DNA of 64,000 bases from Ilumatobacter fluminis (GTDB lineage Bacteria > Actinomycetota > Acidimicrobiia > Acidimicrobiales > Ilumatobacteraceae): assembly GCF_004364865.1 (NCBI RefSeq), contig NZ_SOAU01000001.1:4620001-4684000 (forward strand), read 5' to 3'. The notes under the pieces were generated by a model. It had not been told where the DNA came from, made no database searches, and was given only the letters and a program-made list of their open reading frames with translations. Below, in pieces: positions 14,512 to 62,596 of this stretch. The translations under genes and the position numbers were made by a program. Position 1 is the first letter of the stretch. Each line of letters opens with the position of its first letter.

Positions 14512-14652
14512 CGGGTCGGGTGTCGGAGGGAACGGCGACGGAGTCGACGTTTCCGAAGATCACCCGACTCCGGCGCCGCGAGTACGCGTCCGGGTCGGGT
14601 GATCTCCCGAAACGCCTCGGCTGCGCCTCGGTGTTCCGTACGACACCCGACC
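14512..14652. repeat. Nested inverted repeats between the small conserved gene and msrA
   Basis: Outer arms: TCGGGTCGGGTGTCG-type (14512-14526) with CGACACCCGACCC (14640-14652). Inner arms: AGATCACCCGAC (14557-14568) with GTCGGGTGATCT (14594-14605). The 242-base gene-free interval 14494-14735 is largely taken up by this structure. It looks like another intergenic repeat family. Confidence 0.65.
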
Positions 14653-14735
14653 CGCATGATCCGGCGGGGCGAAACGATTCGCGAACTCGGGTGGGGCGAC
14701 CTGGCAGGCGTTGTGGGTGGTCGTACGCTGGAAGC

Positions 14736-52943: not shown

Positions 52944-53145
52944 TTATCCACAAGGTTGTCCCCTGCCTGTGGTTGACGTTGAGCCCCGGATCCACGCTTT
53001 GCGCGCGATCTGTGTGCATAACCGCCGTATTTCTCACATCTGGTGTGTCGAGCGTCACACAATGACAGCAAGTCTCACGTCGCGTCTGTGGATGATGTTG
53101 AGAGTCGTGGGGACAACCTCACGCGCGGGTCGAAGGTTGTCCACA
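52944..53145. promoter_or_regulatory. DnaA-box cluster between cwlM and parB
   Basis: Boxes of TTWTNCACA form: TTATCCACA (52944-52952, plus), TTATGCACA (53013-53021, minus) and TTGTCCACA (53137-53145, plus). A one-mismatch box TGTGGATGA lies at 53087-53095. The gap (52898-53195) is 298 bases, contains a moderately AT-rich part (about 53017-53070), and separates the convergent cwlM and parB genes, so it cannot be explained as a promoter. It could be an origin element or a DnaA-titrating site. Confidence 0.65.
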
Positions 53146-53195
53146 AGACGGGCGACGCCGCATTGAGGTGCTGTTTGCCCGCTGCGTTCAGCGCG

Positions 53196-54146
53196 TCACT
53201 CAGCGTCGGTGTCGGGCTCGGTCATCCGGCGGTAGATCCGCTCCAGATCTTCGAGATCCGCGAACTCGATCGCGATCTTGCCCTTCTTCGCACCCATCTG
53301 CACCTGGACACGCGTCGCCAGATGATCGGCCAGCAACTCCTCGAGTTCGAGCAAGCCGGGCGGTCGCAACCGAGTGGTCGGCGCAACGCCGGCGCCATCG
53401 AGCGACGGCTCGGGTGACGGTGCGTCGGACGGTCGCGGCTCGGGTTCGTCGGCGACCGGTGCCTGCGGCAGTCCCCCGTTCTTGACGGCGAGCTCGACCA
53501 TCCGGACCGTCCACCCTTCGTCGACCGCGCGCTCGGCGATCGAGGCCTGGAGGGCACGGTCCGGCGTGCCGAGCAGGGCGCGGGCATGCCCGGCCGACAG
53601 CCGACCATCCGCCAGCAGATGCTGGATCGTCGGTGGGAGACCGAGCAGCCGCAGCGTGTTGGTCACGGCCGAGCGGCTCTTGCCGACGCGATCGGCGACA
53701 TCCTCGTGGGTGAGCTCGAAGTCCTCGATCAGCTGCTGATACGCCGCCGCCTCTTCGAGCGGGGTGAGATCTTGGCGATGCAGGTTCTCGACCAACGCCT
53801 GCTCGACCGACGACAGATCGTCGGTCGTCCGCACGACGGCCGGGACGGCCGCCAAGCCGGCACGGGTCGCAGCACGCCAGCGCCGCTCCCCCGCCACGAG
53901 TTCGAACCCGTCCTCGACCTCGCGCACGAGGATTGGCTGCAGCACGCCGATCTGCTGGATCGACGCCGTCAACTCGGCCAGCGACTCCTCGTCGAAGTGC
54001 ACGCGTGGCTGATGCGGGTTCGGGACGATGTCGGCGATCGGGATCTCACGCAGCACCGCCGTGTCGTCACCACCGCCCGGTGTCGCCTCACCGGGTGGGA
54101 TCAGCGAACTCAAGCCCTTGCCGAGTCCTCCACTACGCCGGGCCAT
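53196..54146 (-). CDS. parB: Chromosome-partitioning protein ParB
   Basis: A 316-residue ParB. It starts at ATG 54146 with an ideal AAGGAGGTG ribosome site. The N-terminal ParB/Srx domain has NPHQPRVHFDEESLAELTASI and VAGERRWRAATRAGL near residue 70; the CTP-binding GERRWRA motif is intact. A helix-turn-helix follows (THEDVADRVGKSRSAVTNTLRLL near 150). After a Pro/Ser linker, the C-terminal domain (about 255-310) mediates dimerisation. It overlaps the parA stop codon by 14 bases. Six parS-like targets lie just beyond parA. Confidence 0.96.
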   Translation of the reverse strand: MARRSGGLGKGLSSLIPPGEATPGGGDDTAVLREIPIADIVPNPHQPRVHFDEESLAELTASIQQIGVLQPILVREVEDGFELVAGERRWRAATRAGLAAVPAVVRTTDDLSSVEQALVENLHRQDLTPLEEAAAYQQLIEDFELTHEDVADRVGKSRSAVTNTLRLLGLPPTIQHLLADGRLSAGHARALLGTPDRALQASIAERAVDEGWTVRMVELAVKNGGLPQAPVADEPEPRPSDAPSPEPSLDGAGVAPTTRLRPPGLLELEELLADHLATRVQVQMGAKKGKIAIEFADLEDLERIYRRMTEPDTDAE

Positions 54147-54936
54147 GGTGCACCTCCTTCGCGACGTCGCGATACGCGACGGCGCCGTTCGAGCGGGGGT
54201 CATAGACGATGATCGGCTGGCCGAACGACGGCGCCTCCGACAGGCGGACCGAACGAGGGACCACCGGACGGACCACCTTCTCGCCGAAGTGGTCACGCAC
54301 TTCGGCGACGACCTGTTCCGAGAGCTTGGTACGAGCGTCGTACATGACGCACACGATCGTCGAGACATCGAGATCGGGGTTCAGATTGCGCTTCACCAGG
54401 TCGACGTTGCGCAGCAACTGACCGAGTCCTTCGAGCGCGTAGTACTCGGTCTGGATCGGGACGAGCACCTCACTCGCCGCCGCCAGTCCGTTGACCGTCA
54501 GCAGGCCGAGCGTGGGCGGGCAGTCGATGAGGACATAGTCGTAATCGTCGATCACCGCCGCGATCGCCTGACGGAGCCGTGTTTCGCGAGAGAACGCCGG
54601 GACCAGCTCGATCTCGGCACCCGCCAGGTCGAGACTGGCCGGCGCGACGAACAGCCCACGGACGTCGGTCGGCTCGATCACGTTCTCGAGCGGCTCGTCG
54701 TGCATGAGTACGTGGTACATCGAGACCTCGAGCCCACGATTCTCGATGCCCAGACCCGTGGACGCATTGCCCTGCGGGTCGAGATCGATCACCAGGGTGC
54801 GGAGTCCGAGTTCGGCGAGACACGCACCCAGGTTGATCGTCGTCGTCGTCTTGCCGACGCCACCTTTCTGGTTGGCAACGGCGATGACACGGGGGAGTTC
54901 TCGAACCGGCGGCCGAGGAGCAGCTGCGGCATCCAT
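54133..54936 (-). CDS. parA: Chromosome-partitioning ATPase ParA
   Basis: A 267-residue ParA. The ATG at 54936 gives a short basic start, then the deviant Walker A KGGVGKTTT at about residues 24-32 and a Walker B-type VLIDCPPTLGLLT near 130. The product forms ATP-dependent dimers on DNA that move ParB-parS complexes. A frame open further upstream to 55050 contains two parS copies read as codons, so it is not used as coding sequence. It overlaps parB and is probably cotranscribed with it. Confidence 0.96.
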   Translation of the reverse strand: MDAAAAPRPPVRELPRVIAVANQKGGVGKTTTTINLGACLAELGLRTLVIDLDPQGNASTGLGIENRGLEVSMYHVLMHDEPLENVIEPTDVRGLFVAPASLDLAGAEIELVPAFSRETRLRQAIAAVIDDYDYVLIDCPPTLGLLTVNGLAAASEVLVPIQTEYYALEGLGQLLRNVDLVKRNLNPDLDVSTIVCVMYDARTKLSEQVVAEVRDHFGEKVVRPVVPRSVRLSEAPSFGQPIIVYDPRSNGAVAYRDVAKEVHHGPA

Positions 54937-54988
54937 CGCCCGCCATTCTGCCCGCTCCAGACCGCAGAACCGCGGATAGACCCCGGAA

Positions 54989-55004
54989 TGTTCCACGTGA
55001 AACC
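54989..55004. promoter_or_regulatory. parS: parS-like site 1
   Basis: TGTTCCACGTGAAACC, two changes from the consensus TGTTTCACGTGAAACA. It lies 53 bases upstream of the parA start codon, so ParB binding here could also control parAB. Confidence 0.8.
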
Positions 55005-55033
55005 AAACGAGCTGCGGTCTCCACACCGCAGGC

Positions 55034-55049
55034 TGTTTCACGTGAAACA
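55034..55049. promoter_or_regulatory. parS: parS site 2, perfect consensus
   Basis: TGTTTCACGTGAAACA, a perfect 16-base palindrome and exact match to the bacterial parS consensus, 45 bases beyond site 1. Confidence 0.95.
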
Positions 55050-55177
55050 TGTCGTTCCCTTCGGGTCAGCTCTCGGAGGTGCCGGAGAGGAACGAGCCGC
55101 GCGGATCAGCTGACCTGGATCCGTATCGACGACCAGTGCGAGAACGAGCCGTCGAGCCAGGCCAACAGCGCCGAGGA

Positions 55178-55193
55178 CGTTTCACGTGAACAC
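55178..55193. promoter_or_regulatory. parS: parS-like site 3
   Basis: CGTTTCACGTGAACAC has the central CACGTG and left half intact, right half changed. It begins one of the duplicated units: CGCATTCCGGACAGG follows shortly after. Confidence 0.75.
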
Positions 55194-55331
55194 GTCAACG
55201 CATTCCGGACAGGCATCACGGTCACGGGAAAGGAGCGACACCGTGCGGATCACCCTGACCCGGTACCGTTCGGCGAACCACCGGTGAACATGCCGGCGAG
55301 CCAGACGATGGGGGCCGGGGGTCAGGTGGTG

Positions 55332-55347
55332 CGTTTCACGTGAAACA
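55332..55347. promoter_or_regulatory. parS: parS site 4
   Basis: CGTTTCACGTGAAACA, one change from consensus at the first base. Confidence 0.9.
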
Positions 55348-55443
55348 TGCGGCGGAGCTTCCCGGGAGATGACCTGGTCCGGAGCCCGGCGCGTCAACCA
55401 CCGGGAACGAGCCGGCGTATCCGACCGCAGGACCCCGGAGGCG

Positions 55444-55459
55444 CGTTTCACGTGAAACA
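55444..55459. promoter_or_regulatory. parS: parS site 5
   Basis: CGTTTCACGTGAAACA, identical to site 4. It is followed by AGTTCAGCGCATTCCGGACA, which also follows site 6. Confidence 0.9.
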
Positions 55460-55628
55460 GTTCAGCGCATTCCGGACAGGTACCGCCGGCGAAGCCTCGT
55501 CCTACCGAAACGCACGGCGAGGGGGAGCCGCTACCGGCAGATCGCTTGACCCATTGCCCGGCGCGTCAGCCACGGGAACGAATCGTCGTACCCCACAACA
55601 GGACCCCGGAGTCAGGTGACCGCCGGGA

Positions 55629-55653
55629 ACGACTCGCCCAGAGGGCGAGTCGT
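55629..55653. terminator. Hairpin inside the parS region
   Basis: A perfect 11-base stem ACGACTCGCCC (55629-55639) with GGGCGAGTCGT (55643-55653) and a three-base loop, flanked by CAGGTGACC and CACCTGACC. It could be an rsmG terminator or one more repeat element. Confidence 0.55.
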
Positions 55654-55679
55654 CACCTCTGGCACCTGACCCGGAGGCG

Positions 55680-55695
55680 CGTTTCTCGTGAAACA
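55680..55695. promoter_or_regulatory. parS: Degenerate parS site 6
   Basis: CGTTTCTCGTGAAACA has the central CACGTG changed to CTCGTG. It is a decayed copy of site 5 within the second duplicated unit and may bind ParB weakly or not at all. Confidence 0.65.
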
Positions 55696-55903
55696 GTTCA
55701 GCGCATTCCGGACAGGTGTCGCGGGCGACGGCGACGGACGAGCCGCTACCGGCAGATCACTTGACCCATTGCCCGGCGTGTCAGCCACGGGAACGAATCG
55801 TCGTACCCGACCAGAGACCCCGGTGGCGTTCGCCGAACCACCGGCGGAGCGTCGTACCAGCCGGGGCGGAACACGCCGTCGAGCCAGACCTAACGACGGT
55901 TCG

Positions 55904-56443
55904 TCAGGGGGCGTCGAAGCGGATGACTGTGCCCGTGCGGGTGGGGGAGAGGTGGAGCTCGTCGAGGAGCTCGGCCGGCCAGCGGTCACCCGTCGGCGGC
56001 TCACTGATCACGATGCAGCCGCCCGGCCGCACACAGCCTGCTGCCGTTCGGAGCGTGAACTCGGGCGGTCCGAAGCCACGAGCGGTCACGATGTCGAACC
56101 CAGGGTCGACGCCGTCGGTCACCTCACGCACGACCTCGTCGGCGTCACGACAGGCGACCGATACCTGCTCGAAGCCCAGGCGCCGGACCGCTCGCTCGAG
56201 GAAGTCGGTCCGCTTCTGCCGACGGTCGAGCAACACGATCTCCAGATCAGGCCGGGCGTCGGCGACCACCAGACCCGGCAAACCGCCGCCGCTGCCGAGG
56301 TCGAGGAGTCGGCCGGAACGATCGCCGATGGCGGTGACGTACTGTTCGGCGTGGGCGACCGCCTCATCGATGGCGCGGTCGCCGAAAAAGCCGAAACGCT
56401 GCGCCTGGCGCAGCGTTTCGAACAGATCAGGGTGACGATCCAC
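55904..56443 (-). CDS. rsmG: 16S rRNA (guanine527-N7)-methyltransferase
   Basis: A 179-residue RsmG (GidB), slightly short for the family. The SAM-binding GRLLDLGSGGGLPGLVVA is near residue 45, followed by LLDRRQKRTDFLERAV and an FDIVTARGFGPPE segment near 117. It methylates G527 of 16S rRNA. The start is GTG at 56443, three bases after the jag stop codon. In actinobacteria it normally lies between jag and parA, as here. Confidence 0.95.
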   Translation of the reverse strand: MDRHPDLFETLRQAQRFGFFGDRAIDEAVAHAEQYVTAIGDRSGRLLDLGSGGGLPGLVVADARPDLEIVLLDRRQKRTDFLERAVRRLGFEQVSVACRDADEVVREVTDGVDPGFDIVTARGFGPPEFTLRTAAGCVRPGGCIVISEPPTGDRWPAELLDELHLSPTRTGTVIRFDAP

Positions 56444-56445
56444 GA

Positions 56446-57384
56446 TCAGGCGGGGCTGATGACCACCCGGCGGTTGGGCTCGTCGCCTTCGGACCGGCTG
56501 GTCACACCGTCGATCTCGGTGATCGCATCGTGGACGACCTTGCGGTCGGCCGACGACATCGGCTCGAGCGCCTTGGTGCTGCCGGCCTCGATCACCTGGT
56601 TCGCAACGGCGACGGCGAACTTCTCGAGTGCGCCCTTGCGCTTCTCGCGGTAGCCGCCGACGTCGATCCGCAGGCGGGTCTCGTGATCGCCCAGGCGGCG
56701 CTGCGACGAGACACGGGCCAGGTCTTGGACGGCGGTGAGGGTGCGGCCGCCGGGGCCGACCAGCAGGCCGAGTTCGTCGCCGGACACCCGGACGTCGATC
56801 TCGGTGCCGTCGATCTCGACGTCGGTCGTGGCCTCGGCACCGAACGCCGTGGCGAGCCCGCTCATGAACGCCACTGCGGCGTCACCGACTTCTTGCGGCG
56901 AGACCTCGGTCTCGGTTCCGTTGTCTTCCATGGCGGCATGCTCCTTGTCTGTCCGCTGGCGCTTCGAGCGCCCCCGTTGGCCGTTCGACGACCGTTGCTG
57001 ATCCTGTTGAGGCGTGCGGGCCTGCTTGGCGTCGGCCTGGTCGTCGGTCGCCGTGGCGACGGCACCACCGTCGTCGTTGCCGGCGTCGTTCTGATGCTTG
57101 CTCCGGTTGTCGTTCCGGTTGTCGTTCCGGTTGTCGTTGCGGTCACGACCGCCGCGCTTCGACTTGTTCCCGCGGCGGCGATCACGGCGGTCCTGCTTCG
57201 GACGCACCTGCGCCGGCTTGACGCGGGCCCGGACGCGAGCCTCGCTCTTCACCCGACCGAACAAGCCGGTCTTGGCCTCTTCGACGACCTCGAACTCGGC
57301 ATCGTCACGTGCCACGCCGAGCTGATCGAGTGCCAGCTCCTTGGCTTCATCCACCGTCTTGCCGGTGGTCACGACCCATTCCAT
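56446..57384 (-). CDS. jag: RNA-binding protein Jag/KhpB
   Basis: A 312-residue protein. A Jag-N domain (about 1-52, EWVVTTGKTVDEAKELALDQLG) is followed by a long charged linker with three tandem RNDN units (57100-57135) and many Gln/Arg/Lys. A KH domain (about 185-240, with LLVGPGGRTL) and an R3H domain (about 245-312) end it. KhpB binds RNA and affects cell elongation in other bacteria. The linker is much longer than usual. It is part of the yidC-jag-rsmG run on the minus strand. Confidence 0.94.
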   Translation of the reverse strand: MEWVVTTGKTVDEAKELALDQLGVARDDAEFEVVEEAKTGLFGRVKSEARVRARVKPAQVRPKQDRRDRRRGNKSKRGGRDRNDNRNDNRNDNRSKHQNDAGNDDGGAVATATDDQADAKQARTPQQDQQRSSNGQRGRSKRQRTDKEHAAMEDNGTETEVSPQEVGDAAVAFMSGLATAFGAEATTDVEIDGTEIDVRVSGDELGLLVGPGGRTLTAVQDLARVSSQRRLGDHETRLRIDVGGYREKRKGALEKFAVAVANQVIEAGSTKALEPMSSADRKVVHDAITEIDGVTSRSEGDEPNRRVVISPA

Positions 57385-59705: not shown

Positions 59706-59797
59706 CCGTGTGGACGCCGAAGGCATCGGGTCCGACCACCGGTTCGAGCGTCGTCACGGCGCGAGATCCACAGACCGGAGACCACGCAGGAGGTGGG

Positions 59798-61210
59798 ATG
59801 AGCGATCAAGACGAAGTGTGGACCGCCGTTGCTCAGATCCTGCGCTCCCAGCTCACCGAATCGGTCTGGTACTCCACCTTCGCCGAGGTCGTCCCCCAGC
59901 TCGACGACGACCATCAGCAGCTCGTCATCCAGGTGCCGAGCACCCTGGCGCGGGAACGGATCCTCACCCGCTACCAACCCCTGATCACCGACGCGATGGC
60001 CGATCTCGGGTTCTCCGATCGCCGGTTCGATGTCATCATCGGCGGTGCCGAGCGACCCGAACACACGGGCGAGGTGCCGGTGATCAACACCCTGATCCCC
60101 ACCGCCGAACCGGTCGCCGAAACCGAGTCACCCCAGGTCAGCGGGGTCACAACCGACCCGAACGCCGCCCTCGACGACGCCGGACTGAATCCTCGGTACA
60201 CCTTCGAGACGTTCGTGAAGGGTGCATCCAACCAGTTCGCGCTGGCTGCTGCCCTGCGCGTCGCCGAGACACCCGCTCGCAGCTACAACCCGCTGTTCAT
60301 CTACGGTTCGGCCGGTCTCGGCAAGACCCACCTGCTGCACGCGATCGGCCACTACGTCCACTCGAACTACCAGCACCACGTCGTGCGGTATGTGTCGACC
60401 GAGACGTTCATGAACGAGTACGTCGACGCGATCCGCTCGAACTCGATGGCCGGCCTCCGTCGCCGCTACCGCGAGATCGACGTCCTGCTCATCGACGACG
60501 TCCAATTCCTCGAAGGCAAAGAAGGCCTCCAGGAGGAGTTCTTCCACACCTTCAACTCGCTGCACGGCGCGAACAAGCAGATCGTCATCAGCTCCGACCG
60601 CATGCCCGACGCGATCCCGACGCTCGAGGAACGCCTGCGTGGGCGGTTCAAGTGGGGGCTGATCACCGACATCCAGCCCCCCGACATGGAGACCCGTCTC
60701 GCGATCCTCCGCAACAAGGCCGAACGCGAGAAGGTGCGGGTGCCCGCCGAGACCCTCGAGTTCATCGCCTCGAAGATCGCCACCAACATCCGCGAACTCG
60801 AAGGCGCCCTCATCCGCGTCACCGCGTACGCCAGCCTGAGCGGTGCACCGATCACGACCGAGCTCGCCCAGCAGCAGCTCCACGATCTCCTCACCGACAT
60901 CGAGGTCAAGCCACGCACCGACGAGGAACTGCTGGCCGAGATCGCCCGCATCCTCAACTTCGACGTCGAAGCCCTGAAGGGCAAGAGCCGGCAGCGGCCA
61001 CTCGTCACCGCCCGCCAGATCGCGATGTACGTGTTCCGCGAGCAGACCGACCTGAGCTATCCGTCGATCGCCCGCCTGTTCGGCGGCCGCGACCACACGA
61101 CGGTGATCCACGCCGTCGAGAAGATCCAGCGTCAGATGGGTGAACGCCAGGCGATCTACGAACAGGTCACCGACGTCATCCAGAAACTCAAGATGGCGTC
61201 CCCGTCATGA
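59798..61210 (+). CDS. dnaA: Chromosomal replication initiator DnaA
   Basis: A 470-residue DnaA. The start at ATG 59798 follows AGGAGGTGG. Domain I is about residues 1-85 ([21 protein letters not shown]), domain II is short and poorly conserved, and the ATPase has Walker [10 protein letters not shown] near 170, Walker [12 protein letters not shown] near 230 and the sensor segments. The DNA-binding domain carries the DnaA signature [19 protein letters not shown] near 425. It binds boxes on either side of its gene. Confidence 0.98.
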
Positions 61211-61498
61211 GTCGGCACCGATCCGACCATCGCCTCGTCACTCGGACGACGGCGCCCGTTCGCCCCGTGGACACCTTGTGGACGCGCCACGGGACAACGC
61301 GTGTCGTTCCCGTGGACAACGCGACGTCATCCACCGAACTACATCACCGTCATCCGCGCGGTGGGGACGACGGTGGACAACAGCGCGCGGCCGCGCGTAG
61401 CCCCTACGCTGGGCGAATCGTGGGTTGTCCACAATCCACAGCACCTCTTACTAGTACTAATTCGATACACACCACATTGTGAGGAGAAGGGTCGCACT
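61211..61498. promoter_or_regulatory. oriC: Probable oriC between dnaA and dnaN
   Basis: A 288-base gap with one perfect DnaA box TTGTCCACA (61425-61433), near-matches CGTGGACAA (61311-61319) and GGTGGACAA (61372-61380), and further GTGGAC half-matches at about 61267 and 61278. An AT-rich patch at about 61446-61480 near the dnaN start is the only such patch nearby and could be the unwinding element. The position is standard for actinobacterial oriC. Confidence 0.8.
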
Positions 61499-62596
61499 GT
61501 GAAGTTCCGTTGCGAGCGTGAGATTCTGGCCGAGGCGTTGACGACCGCCGGCCGTGCAGCGACCAGTCGGACCGGCACGTTGCCGGTGCTGTCGGGCGTG
61601 CGACTCGATGTTGCCGGGGGCGAGTTGACCGTCACCGGTACCGACCTCGAGTTGACGATCCGGCTGACCGTCCCGGTCCACAGCGATCAGGACGGATCGG
61701 CCGTGGTGCCGGCCCGCCTGATCAGCGACATCGTCCGGGCACTGCCCGCCGGTGCCGTCGAGATCAGTCTCGGCGACGACGAGATGGCGATCAGCGCCGG
61801 TCGGTCGCAGTTCTCGGTCCGGCCGCTGTCGCTCAGCGACTACCCGGCCCAGGCCGAGCCCGACGCCGAGCCGGTCACCCTCCAGTCGAGCGAGGTGTCC
61901 GACGCACTCCGCCAGGTCGTGCGTGCCGCGTCGACCGACGACGCCCGTGCGGTGCTCACCGGTGTGCTCATCGCTGCCGACGACGAGGGCCTGAAGATGG
62001 TCGCCACCGACTCGTACCGACTGGCCGTGCGCGACCTGCCCCAGTCGTCGATGCTCGGCTCGGGCCAGAAGGTGCTCGTCCCCGGTCGTGCCCTCGCCGA
62101 GTTGCAGCGCATCCTCTCCTCCGGCGACGACGAACTCACCGTTCGGCTCGGCACCCGCGAGGCCGTGTTCGAAGCCGGCGAGACCCGACTCACCACCCGC
62201 CTGATCGAGGGTGAGTACCCGAACTACCGCAACCTGTTGCCGTCGGCGTACCCGAACCTGCTCACCGTGGGCCGCGAGGCACTCCTCGAGGCGTTGCGAC
62301 GCGTGAAGATCCTCGCCCAGGACTCGACGCCGGTGCGGCTCACCCTCGCCGGTGACACCCTGCAGCTCACCGCCATCACCCAGGACGTCGGCAACGCCCA
62401 CGAGGAGATCGACGCCAGCTACGACGGTGCCGAGATGACCGTGGCGTTCAACCCCGACTACCTGGCGTCGGGCATCGACGCGGTCGAGGGTGACGAGGTG
62501 ACCCTCGCGACGATGGACCCGATGAAGCCGGCAGTGCTCCGCGGCGTCGGCCACGACGAGTACCTCTACCTCCTCATGCCCGTCCGCGTGCCGTAA
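61499..62596 (+). CDS. dnaN: DNA polymerase III beta clamp
   Basis: A 365-residue sliding clamp. The GTG at 61499 follows a GAGGAGAAGG ribosome site and gives the family start KFRCEREILAEALTTAGRA. Three repeated clamp domains of about 120 residues follow, including LSGVRLDVAGGELTVTGTDLE near 37 and the C-terminal DEYLYLLMPVRVP. It keeps the polymerase on DNA. It is transcribed away from dnaA through the origin region. Confidence 0.97.
   Translation: MKFRCEREILAEALTTAGRAATSRTGTLPVLSGVRLDVAGGELTVTGTDLELTIRLTVPVHSDQDGSAVVPARLISDIVRALPAGAVEISLGDDEMAISAGRSQFSVRPLSLSDYPAQAEPDAEPVTLQSSEVSDALRQVVRAASTDDARAVLTGVLIAADDEGLKMVATDSYRLAVRDLPQSSMLGSGQKVLVPGRALAELQRILSSGDDELTVRLGTREAVFEAGETRLTTRLIEGEYPNYRNLLPSAYPNLLTVGREALLEALRRVKILAQDSTPVRLTLAGDTLQLTAITQDVGNAHEEIDASYDGAEMTVAFNPDYLASGIDAVEGDEVTLATMDPMKPAVLRGVGHDEYLYLLMPVRVP

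Follow-up and report, generated by a model that had tools for sequence, protein, structure and literature searches.

In ParABS systems, ParB loads at parS sites, spreads or slides over nearby DNA, recruits SMC and is moved by ParA. A REP pair consists of a REP, a linker and an inverted REP, and RAYT-type transposases are believed to mobilize such repeats. At the locus of Ilumatobacter fluminis described here, both kinds of sequence lie side by side. C. glutamicum carries ten parS in a 35-kb region (PMC7083940), Caulobacter five or more close to ori (PMC5815017) and P. aeruginosa four near oriC (PMC4368675); one parS often suffices (PMC7083940, PMC7333895). Two of these papers ask how parS regions expand and why the number of sites varies although one is often enough (PMC5815017, PMC7333895). 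Like these three centromeres, the locus has the general parS sequence, parAB nearby, a position near dnaA and several sites, some of them degenerate. In contrast, its sites lie within one gap, and they alternate with REP segments. The original prediction took parS sites to be usually scattered over several genes, which is true of other bacteria such as C. glutamicum (PMC7083940), but not of the relatives surveyed here, where they are packed in the same gap.

The REP-rayt-REP plan has been described in PMC2817692. As in that REP/BIME and RAYT system, the repeats are inverted imperfect palindromes with more than 100 model matches, and one Y1 gene lies between inverted REPs. Unlike there, the REP segments of this locus are interleaved with parS and mostly eroded. 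The closest arrays, in the Acidimicrobiia genomes G054, G019 and G090, occupy the same gap with several sites, and unit duplication is clear in G054 and G019. However, the REP family present here has no match in these three, either in the gaps or in the genomes (150 candidates scored per genome). Among the open-licence papers listed in literature searches, no account of a parS/REP combination was found, including under the topics of Acidimicrobiia parS, REPIN and RAYT/BIME.

The window, that is, the whole 64-kb stretch of DNA analysed, corresponds to C1:4620001-4684000 in a genome that consists of one contig of 4,775,416 bases. Open reading frames and family models give the gene order trxB, parB, parA, gap, rsmG, jag, yidC, dnaA, dnaN, with the rsmG match below its cut-off. 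The parS block is located between rsmG and parA, at a distance of ~6 kb from the junction of dnaA and dnaN. DnaA (59708-61210) and DnaN (61301-62596) score over their model cut-offs, and with these genes as a proxy for oriC, the block is near the origin. Between the likely start of parA (54936) and rsmG (55904), the gap measures 967 bases (Table 1). The start was set at this ATG because the relatives open with the same MDAA-type residues. The parA reading frame is still open upstream of it, across parS sites 1 and 2 (54937-55050); hence, an automatic annotation could place the start too early. A ParB with three Pfam ParB domains adjoins the sites. Its nearest named records are Ilumatobacter and other Acidimicrobiia MAGs, with a best identity of 88% (records of the genome itself are possibly omitted). 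A coding or RNA explanation of the gap was rejected: the three ORFs in it have no Pfam match above cut-off (one weak match, E 0.12), and an Rfam search of 53000-57000 returned no match.

Table 1. Features of the parAB-rsmG region; positions are those of the window.
Feature	Position	Strand	Basis
parB	53196..54146	-	TIGR00180 over cut-off; Pfam ParB_N, HTH_ParB and ParB_C over cut-off
parA	54133..54936	-	ORF, start position, ends of relatives' gaps; ParA-type family matches all below cut-offs
parS site 1	54989..55004	.	TGTTCCACGTGAAACC; one core mismatch; identical 16-mer ends the G019 gap on the other strand
parS site 2	55034..55049	.	TGTTTCACGTGAAACA; perfect
U0	55063..55167	+	eroded left part of REP pair; profile 36.0 bits; covariance model 27.1 bits (55063-55116)
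parS site 3	55178..55193	.	CGTTTCACGTGAACAC; damage in right half
U1	55229..55328	+	eroded REP-pair segment; profile 18.8 bits; covariance model none
parS site 4	55332..55347	.	CGTTTCACGTGAAACA; perfect core
U2	55365..55441	+	REP-pair segment without first 42 profile positions; profile 23.9 bits; covariance model none
parS site 5	55444..55459	.	CGTTTCACGTGAAACA; perfect core
U3	55514..55673	+	REP pair through right palindrome; profile 89.4 bits (+), 30.3 bits (-); alignment
Intact REP palindrome of U3	55609..55672	-	covariance model 70.9 bits; DNA fold of 55514-55680, z -3.46
parS site 6	55680..55695	.	CGTTTCTCGTGAAACA; damage in centre
U4	55711..55825	+	left part of REP pair, near copy of U3; profile 38.0 bits; covariance model 36.3 bits (55709-55767)
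rsmG	55904..56443	-	upstream border of gap; best NCBIfam match TIGR00138, 66.9 bits, below cut-off of 99.5

With up to two mismatches allowed, TTTCACGTGAAA has six matches in the 64 kb. At the level of the 12-base core, three are perfect (55036, 55334 and 55446) and three have one mismatch (54991, 55180 and 55682). Shuffled windows contain 0.55 core matches on average, and none of 100 shuffles reaches six. The 16-mers extend over 54989-55695, which confirms the predicted six copies, from perfect to decayed, in 707 bases. The whole core GTTTCACGTGAAAC is kept in sites 2, 4 and 5, site 1 is a variant also present in relatives, and sites 3 and 6 are damaged. The genome-wide count for which the original prediction called gives the same picture: in the whole 4.78 Mb, the core with up to one mismatch is found at these six positions, all inside the rsmG-parA gap, and nowhere else. 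As far as the sequence shows, the many additional sites that would have spoken against the proposed compact centromere-type array are therefore absent. When one mismatch is tolerated, the less stringent 14-mer GTTYCACGTGRAAC occurs at eight places in the genome. Four are perfect and located in the gap; the four with one mismatch are site 6 and three places outside the gap (C1:865746, 1341763 and 3763320). The spacings from site to site are uneven (45, 144, 154, 112 and 236). A regular tandem array was rejected, as Tandem Repeats Finder lists none and the spacings vary.

A profile built from ten dispersed REP pairs matches all five segments that follow sites 2 to 6, i.e., the four inter-parS spacers U0 to U3 and the segment U4 after site 6. 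The best match is on the + strand each time, and the best of 200 block shuffles scores 10.0 bits. The spacer between sites 1 and 2 has no match to this profile. U0 to U4 cover 557 of the 967 gap bases. The right palindrome is kept by U3 only and is absent from four of the five segments; U3 also scores on the - strand because a REP pair is inverted, and its eroded left end extends back to ~55472. The covariance model, which is stricter and describes the palindrome, recognizes U3, U4 and U0, and finds no significant match in U1 and U2. In four of the five segments, the left REP starts 27-28 bases past the start of the preceding site (sites 2, 3, 5 and 6), on the same strand; U2 has lost that part. 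Extrapolated from the profile, the offsets are 29 (U0), 24 (U1), 51 (U3) and 29 (U4), the larger value of U3 being due to an insert of ~22 bases.

The likeness of the units reaches beyond the 16-base sites, in agreement with the original prediction. A 59-nt block including parS is 93% alike at 55434 and 55670, an 82-nt block is 91% alike at 55525 and 55740, and GCATTCCGGACAGG is present in three copies. These stretches were rejected as centromere-specific sequence, since the same stretches are dispersed across the genome: a search with 55190-55880 returned at least 111 matches (E up to 10, with 40 of the 163 candidates scored), of which a few lie in the array itself. When 22 copies from the genome are aligned, two inverted imperfect palindromes and a linker emerge, ~180 bases in total, as in REP/BIME sequences. 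In consensus form, the palindrome consists of GGGTCAGGTGCCAGAGGTGACG and CGTTACCGGCGGTCACCTGACCC on the two sides of a variable loop, with 19 base pairs. The covariance model, built from 19 palindromes, one of them from the window, has 131 matches in the same genome with 150 of 10495 candidates scored, in line with a copy number above 100; the count is not exact, as a palindrome may match both strands, nor is it complete. In other members of the genus, the same model finds 89 matches in G112, 62 in G067, 3 in G123 and none in six further genomes (150 candidates scored per genome). In the window, the sole other REP pair found lies at 14512-14653, the only place outside the array above 10 bits by profile.

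One Y1 transposase gene, RAYT-like, was found in the genome (C1:4552074-4552892 of G000; L138:1075-1893), an ORF of 272 residues. Its product matches Pfam Y1_Tnp over cut-off. The sole NCBIfam match, NF047646 (REP-associated tyrosine transposase), scores 53.4 bits, below the cut-off of 80. REPs of opposite orientation flank the gene at 4551956-4552019 (+) and 4552872-4552935 (-), and the latter overlaps with the ORF's end. Short tandem REP pieces, spaced by ~30-35 bases, are visible on either side of it.

For comparison, 80 loci were chosen by ParB likeness alone. Sixty-three were measurable (rsmG and parA placed, gap below 4 kb), and 17 were dropped. With up to three mismatches, parS is present in the rsmG-parA gap of 61 of these 63 loci; therefore, packing in this gap is the norm among these relatives. 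Two sites are most frequent (32 loci), before one (15), three (7), four (5), seven (2) and none (2). In total, the relatives' gaps hold 134 sites, compared to a shuffle mean of 0.045, an excess of more than 100-fold. Counted in the same way, the window has five sites, the 1462-base gap of G019 has six, and the genus gaps that could be read contain two to six. The array is thus large, but not alone in its size. A one-mismatch core match is present in nine of ten genomes of the genus, in some not on the par contig; matches on other contigs are seen in G090, G079, G038 and G067. At the family level, a perfect core match is present in 75 of the 200 genomes sampled, with no more than four per genome among those listed.

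The sites in these gaps are not uniform. In G079, G054 and G101 (L167, L168 and L169), the parS copies share the asymmetric variant TGTTTCACGGGAAACA on one strand, two copies each, and G054 has an additional third, more degenerate copy. It looks as if the copies had been homogenized or the preference of ParB had shifted. L098:2479-3880 and the gap of L103, from related records, are longer than 2 kb and have seven sites, mostly of the GTTCCACGTGGAAC type (up to three mismatches), with no clear unit likeness.

Duplicated units are recognizable in few relatives. In G054, parS units of 69 bases are 94% alike and contain no REP. In G019, two sites 140 bases apart have similar flanks, and the only match of its array to its own genome is 34 bases long at E 0.003 (40 of 117 candidates scored). 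Among 68 non-redundant gaps with at least two sites, strong same-side flank likeness is limited to G054 (z 35.3), I. fluminis (21.6) and G019 (11.6). Other raised scores are of the inverted-flank type (e.g., L030, z 12.0; L068, z 10.0) and were left out, as this type responds to a third parS or to a spacer that is palindromic. The idea that visible unit duplication is the rule among the relatives was rejected (three of 68 gaps, that of I. fluminis included). REP next to parS was found in none of 92 other complete gaps (E up to 0.01; some records are duplicates, 88 of 93 being non-redundant), and was thus rejected as a class-wide feature. Since the duplications of G054 and G019 are free of this REP, duplication of parS units has taken place more than once in the genus, with the REP as an ingredient in a single lineage.

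The contig of the sister species (L027, taken as G112:C70) starts within the gap. The parS on it aligns with site 2, and a REP comes after this parS in the way U0 follows site 2; the site-2/REP junction is common to both. REPs flank this site-2-like parS on both sides. At the expected position of site 1, L027 reads TGTTCC and then runs straight into a REP (L027:55-237), and G019 keeps an intact site-1 16-mer near parA. A REP probably landed in site 1, or replaced part of it, in the L027 lineage, as a single event. The extra REP suggests that REPs are able to insert at parS by themselves. In L028 (taken as G067), the 180 bases before parA are present and contain no REP. In the sister genomes G112, G067 and G123, rsmG was found in none of the three and ParB in two, and the parB contigs end inside the gap.

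Linkers were compared for U1 to U4. Those of U3 and U4 are 92% identical, and their best dispersed relatives reach 77% (U3) and 75% (U4). The U2 linker is 77% identical to U3 and 79% to a dispersed copy, the U1 linker 61% to U2 and 67% to a dispersed copy. On the right flank, 12 non-REP bases are identical at sites 5 and 6, and site 3 shares most of them. What sites 5 and 6 share on the left (CCCGGAGGCG) consists in part of REP sequence; site 4 has neither flank in common with them. By these alignments, parS plus REP was duplicated recently to give the units of sites 5 and 6, and the predicted growth by tandem duplication stands for these two. U1 and U2 resemble the array no more than they resemble dispersed copies, and for the older units such growth would follow from order, strand and offset.

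It is probable that the block is a chromosomal ParABS centromere in which an ancestral parS pair was joined by a REP, and a composite unit of parS and REP was then copied in tandem. The ancestral rsmG-parA gap would have contained two parS (sites 1 and 2), like that of many relatives. A REP pair would have come to lie ~12 bases beyond site 2, and the composite unit, parS with the left part of the REP pair, would have given rise to sites 3 to 6. Four of the five segments are without the right REP, a feature for which simple copying of the whole pair does not account. The last duplication (sites 5 and 6) would be recent and the older units eroded. The REPs would be passengers, supplying homology for unequal exchange. 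The block would represent a snapshot of centromere expansion, with units of different ages beside a mobile repeat.

Several points count against this composite-unit copying: the missing right REPs, the lack of a significant covariance-model match in U1 and U2, the flanks of site 4, the extra REP of L027, the absence of REP next to parS from the 92 other complete gaps, and the similarity of U1 and U2, which does not favor the array over dispersed copies. The last of these fits another route: parS would have multiplied by other means, and REP pairs would have been inserted independently beside the sites, by a transposase that perhaps favors palindromes like parS. The extra REP of L027 at the expected site 1, seen against the intact 16-mer of G019, speaks for such insertions as well, and for the older units, repeated REP insertion beside parS is a live rival. 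For the array, however, this course of events is unlikely: all five segments are on the same strand, four of them keep the 27-28 base offset, sites 5 and 6 have the 12-base non-REP flank in common, and none of the dispersed copies compared comes nearly as close to U3 or U4 as these two do to each other. It is rather more doubtful that RAYT and REP drive the growth of the centromere, with REPs landing at or beside parS, and REP exchange or the transposase multiplying the parS and REP units. If so, centromere copy number would evolve through a mobile element.

Composite-unit copying is compatible with a neutral view of its products, in which the centromere function lies with one to three sites and the others are decaying copies without a role. 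Two of the six sites are damaged, the number of sites varies in the readable genus gaps, and in C. glutamicum, a single parS suffices and sites with three or more mismatches recruited no ParB (PMC7083940). Yet sites 2, 4 and 5 keep the whole core, although identity among the U1, U2 and U3 linkers is just 53-77%, which fits selection on the sites. A purely neutral by-product is quite improbable. The style of plasmid centromeres, which the original prediction had invoked, is unsupported given the chromosomal neighborhood and the use of the same gap by nearly all measurable relatives. Compact repeated sites directly upstream of parAB would suit a plasmid-derived or plasmid-style locus captured by the chromosome, and ParA and ParB do show some weak similarity to plasmid RepA/RepB models. 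However, these matches are below cut-off and TIGR00180 is over it, the sites have the chromosomal parS sequence rather than a repeat of their own with plasmid-type Par proteins, and the gene order near dnaA is chromosomal. Such a capture is strongly disfavored, with hardly any chance of being correct.

By analogy with studied ParABS systems, ParB would load at this gap, recruit SMC and let ParA move the origin. To judge by their motifs, sites 2, 4 and 5 would do most of the ParB loading, with sites 3 and 6 weak, and one merged ParB peak would be expected over the array. The REPs most likely make no specific contribution. For REP/BIME sequences, binding by gyrase, IHF and DNA polymerase I is reported (PMC2817692), and binding by such proteins could, by analogy, affect topology. 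The array is genuine and chromosomal, and neither its location nor its type is out of the ordinary; its unusual features are the interleaving with a mobile repeat and the differing age of its units.

In I. fluminis, G054 and G019, parS units are caught after tandem duplication, each with a different unit sequence. With three gaps built of different duplicated units, a single genus makes it possible to test whether centromeres grow by duplicating units locally. In one lineage, the REPs bring in additional homology and perhaps also a cause that lies in a mobile element.
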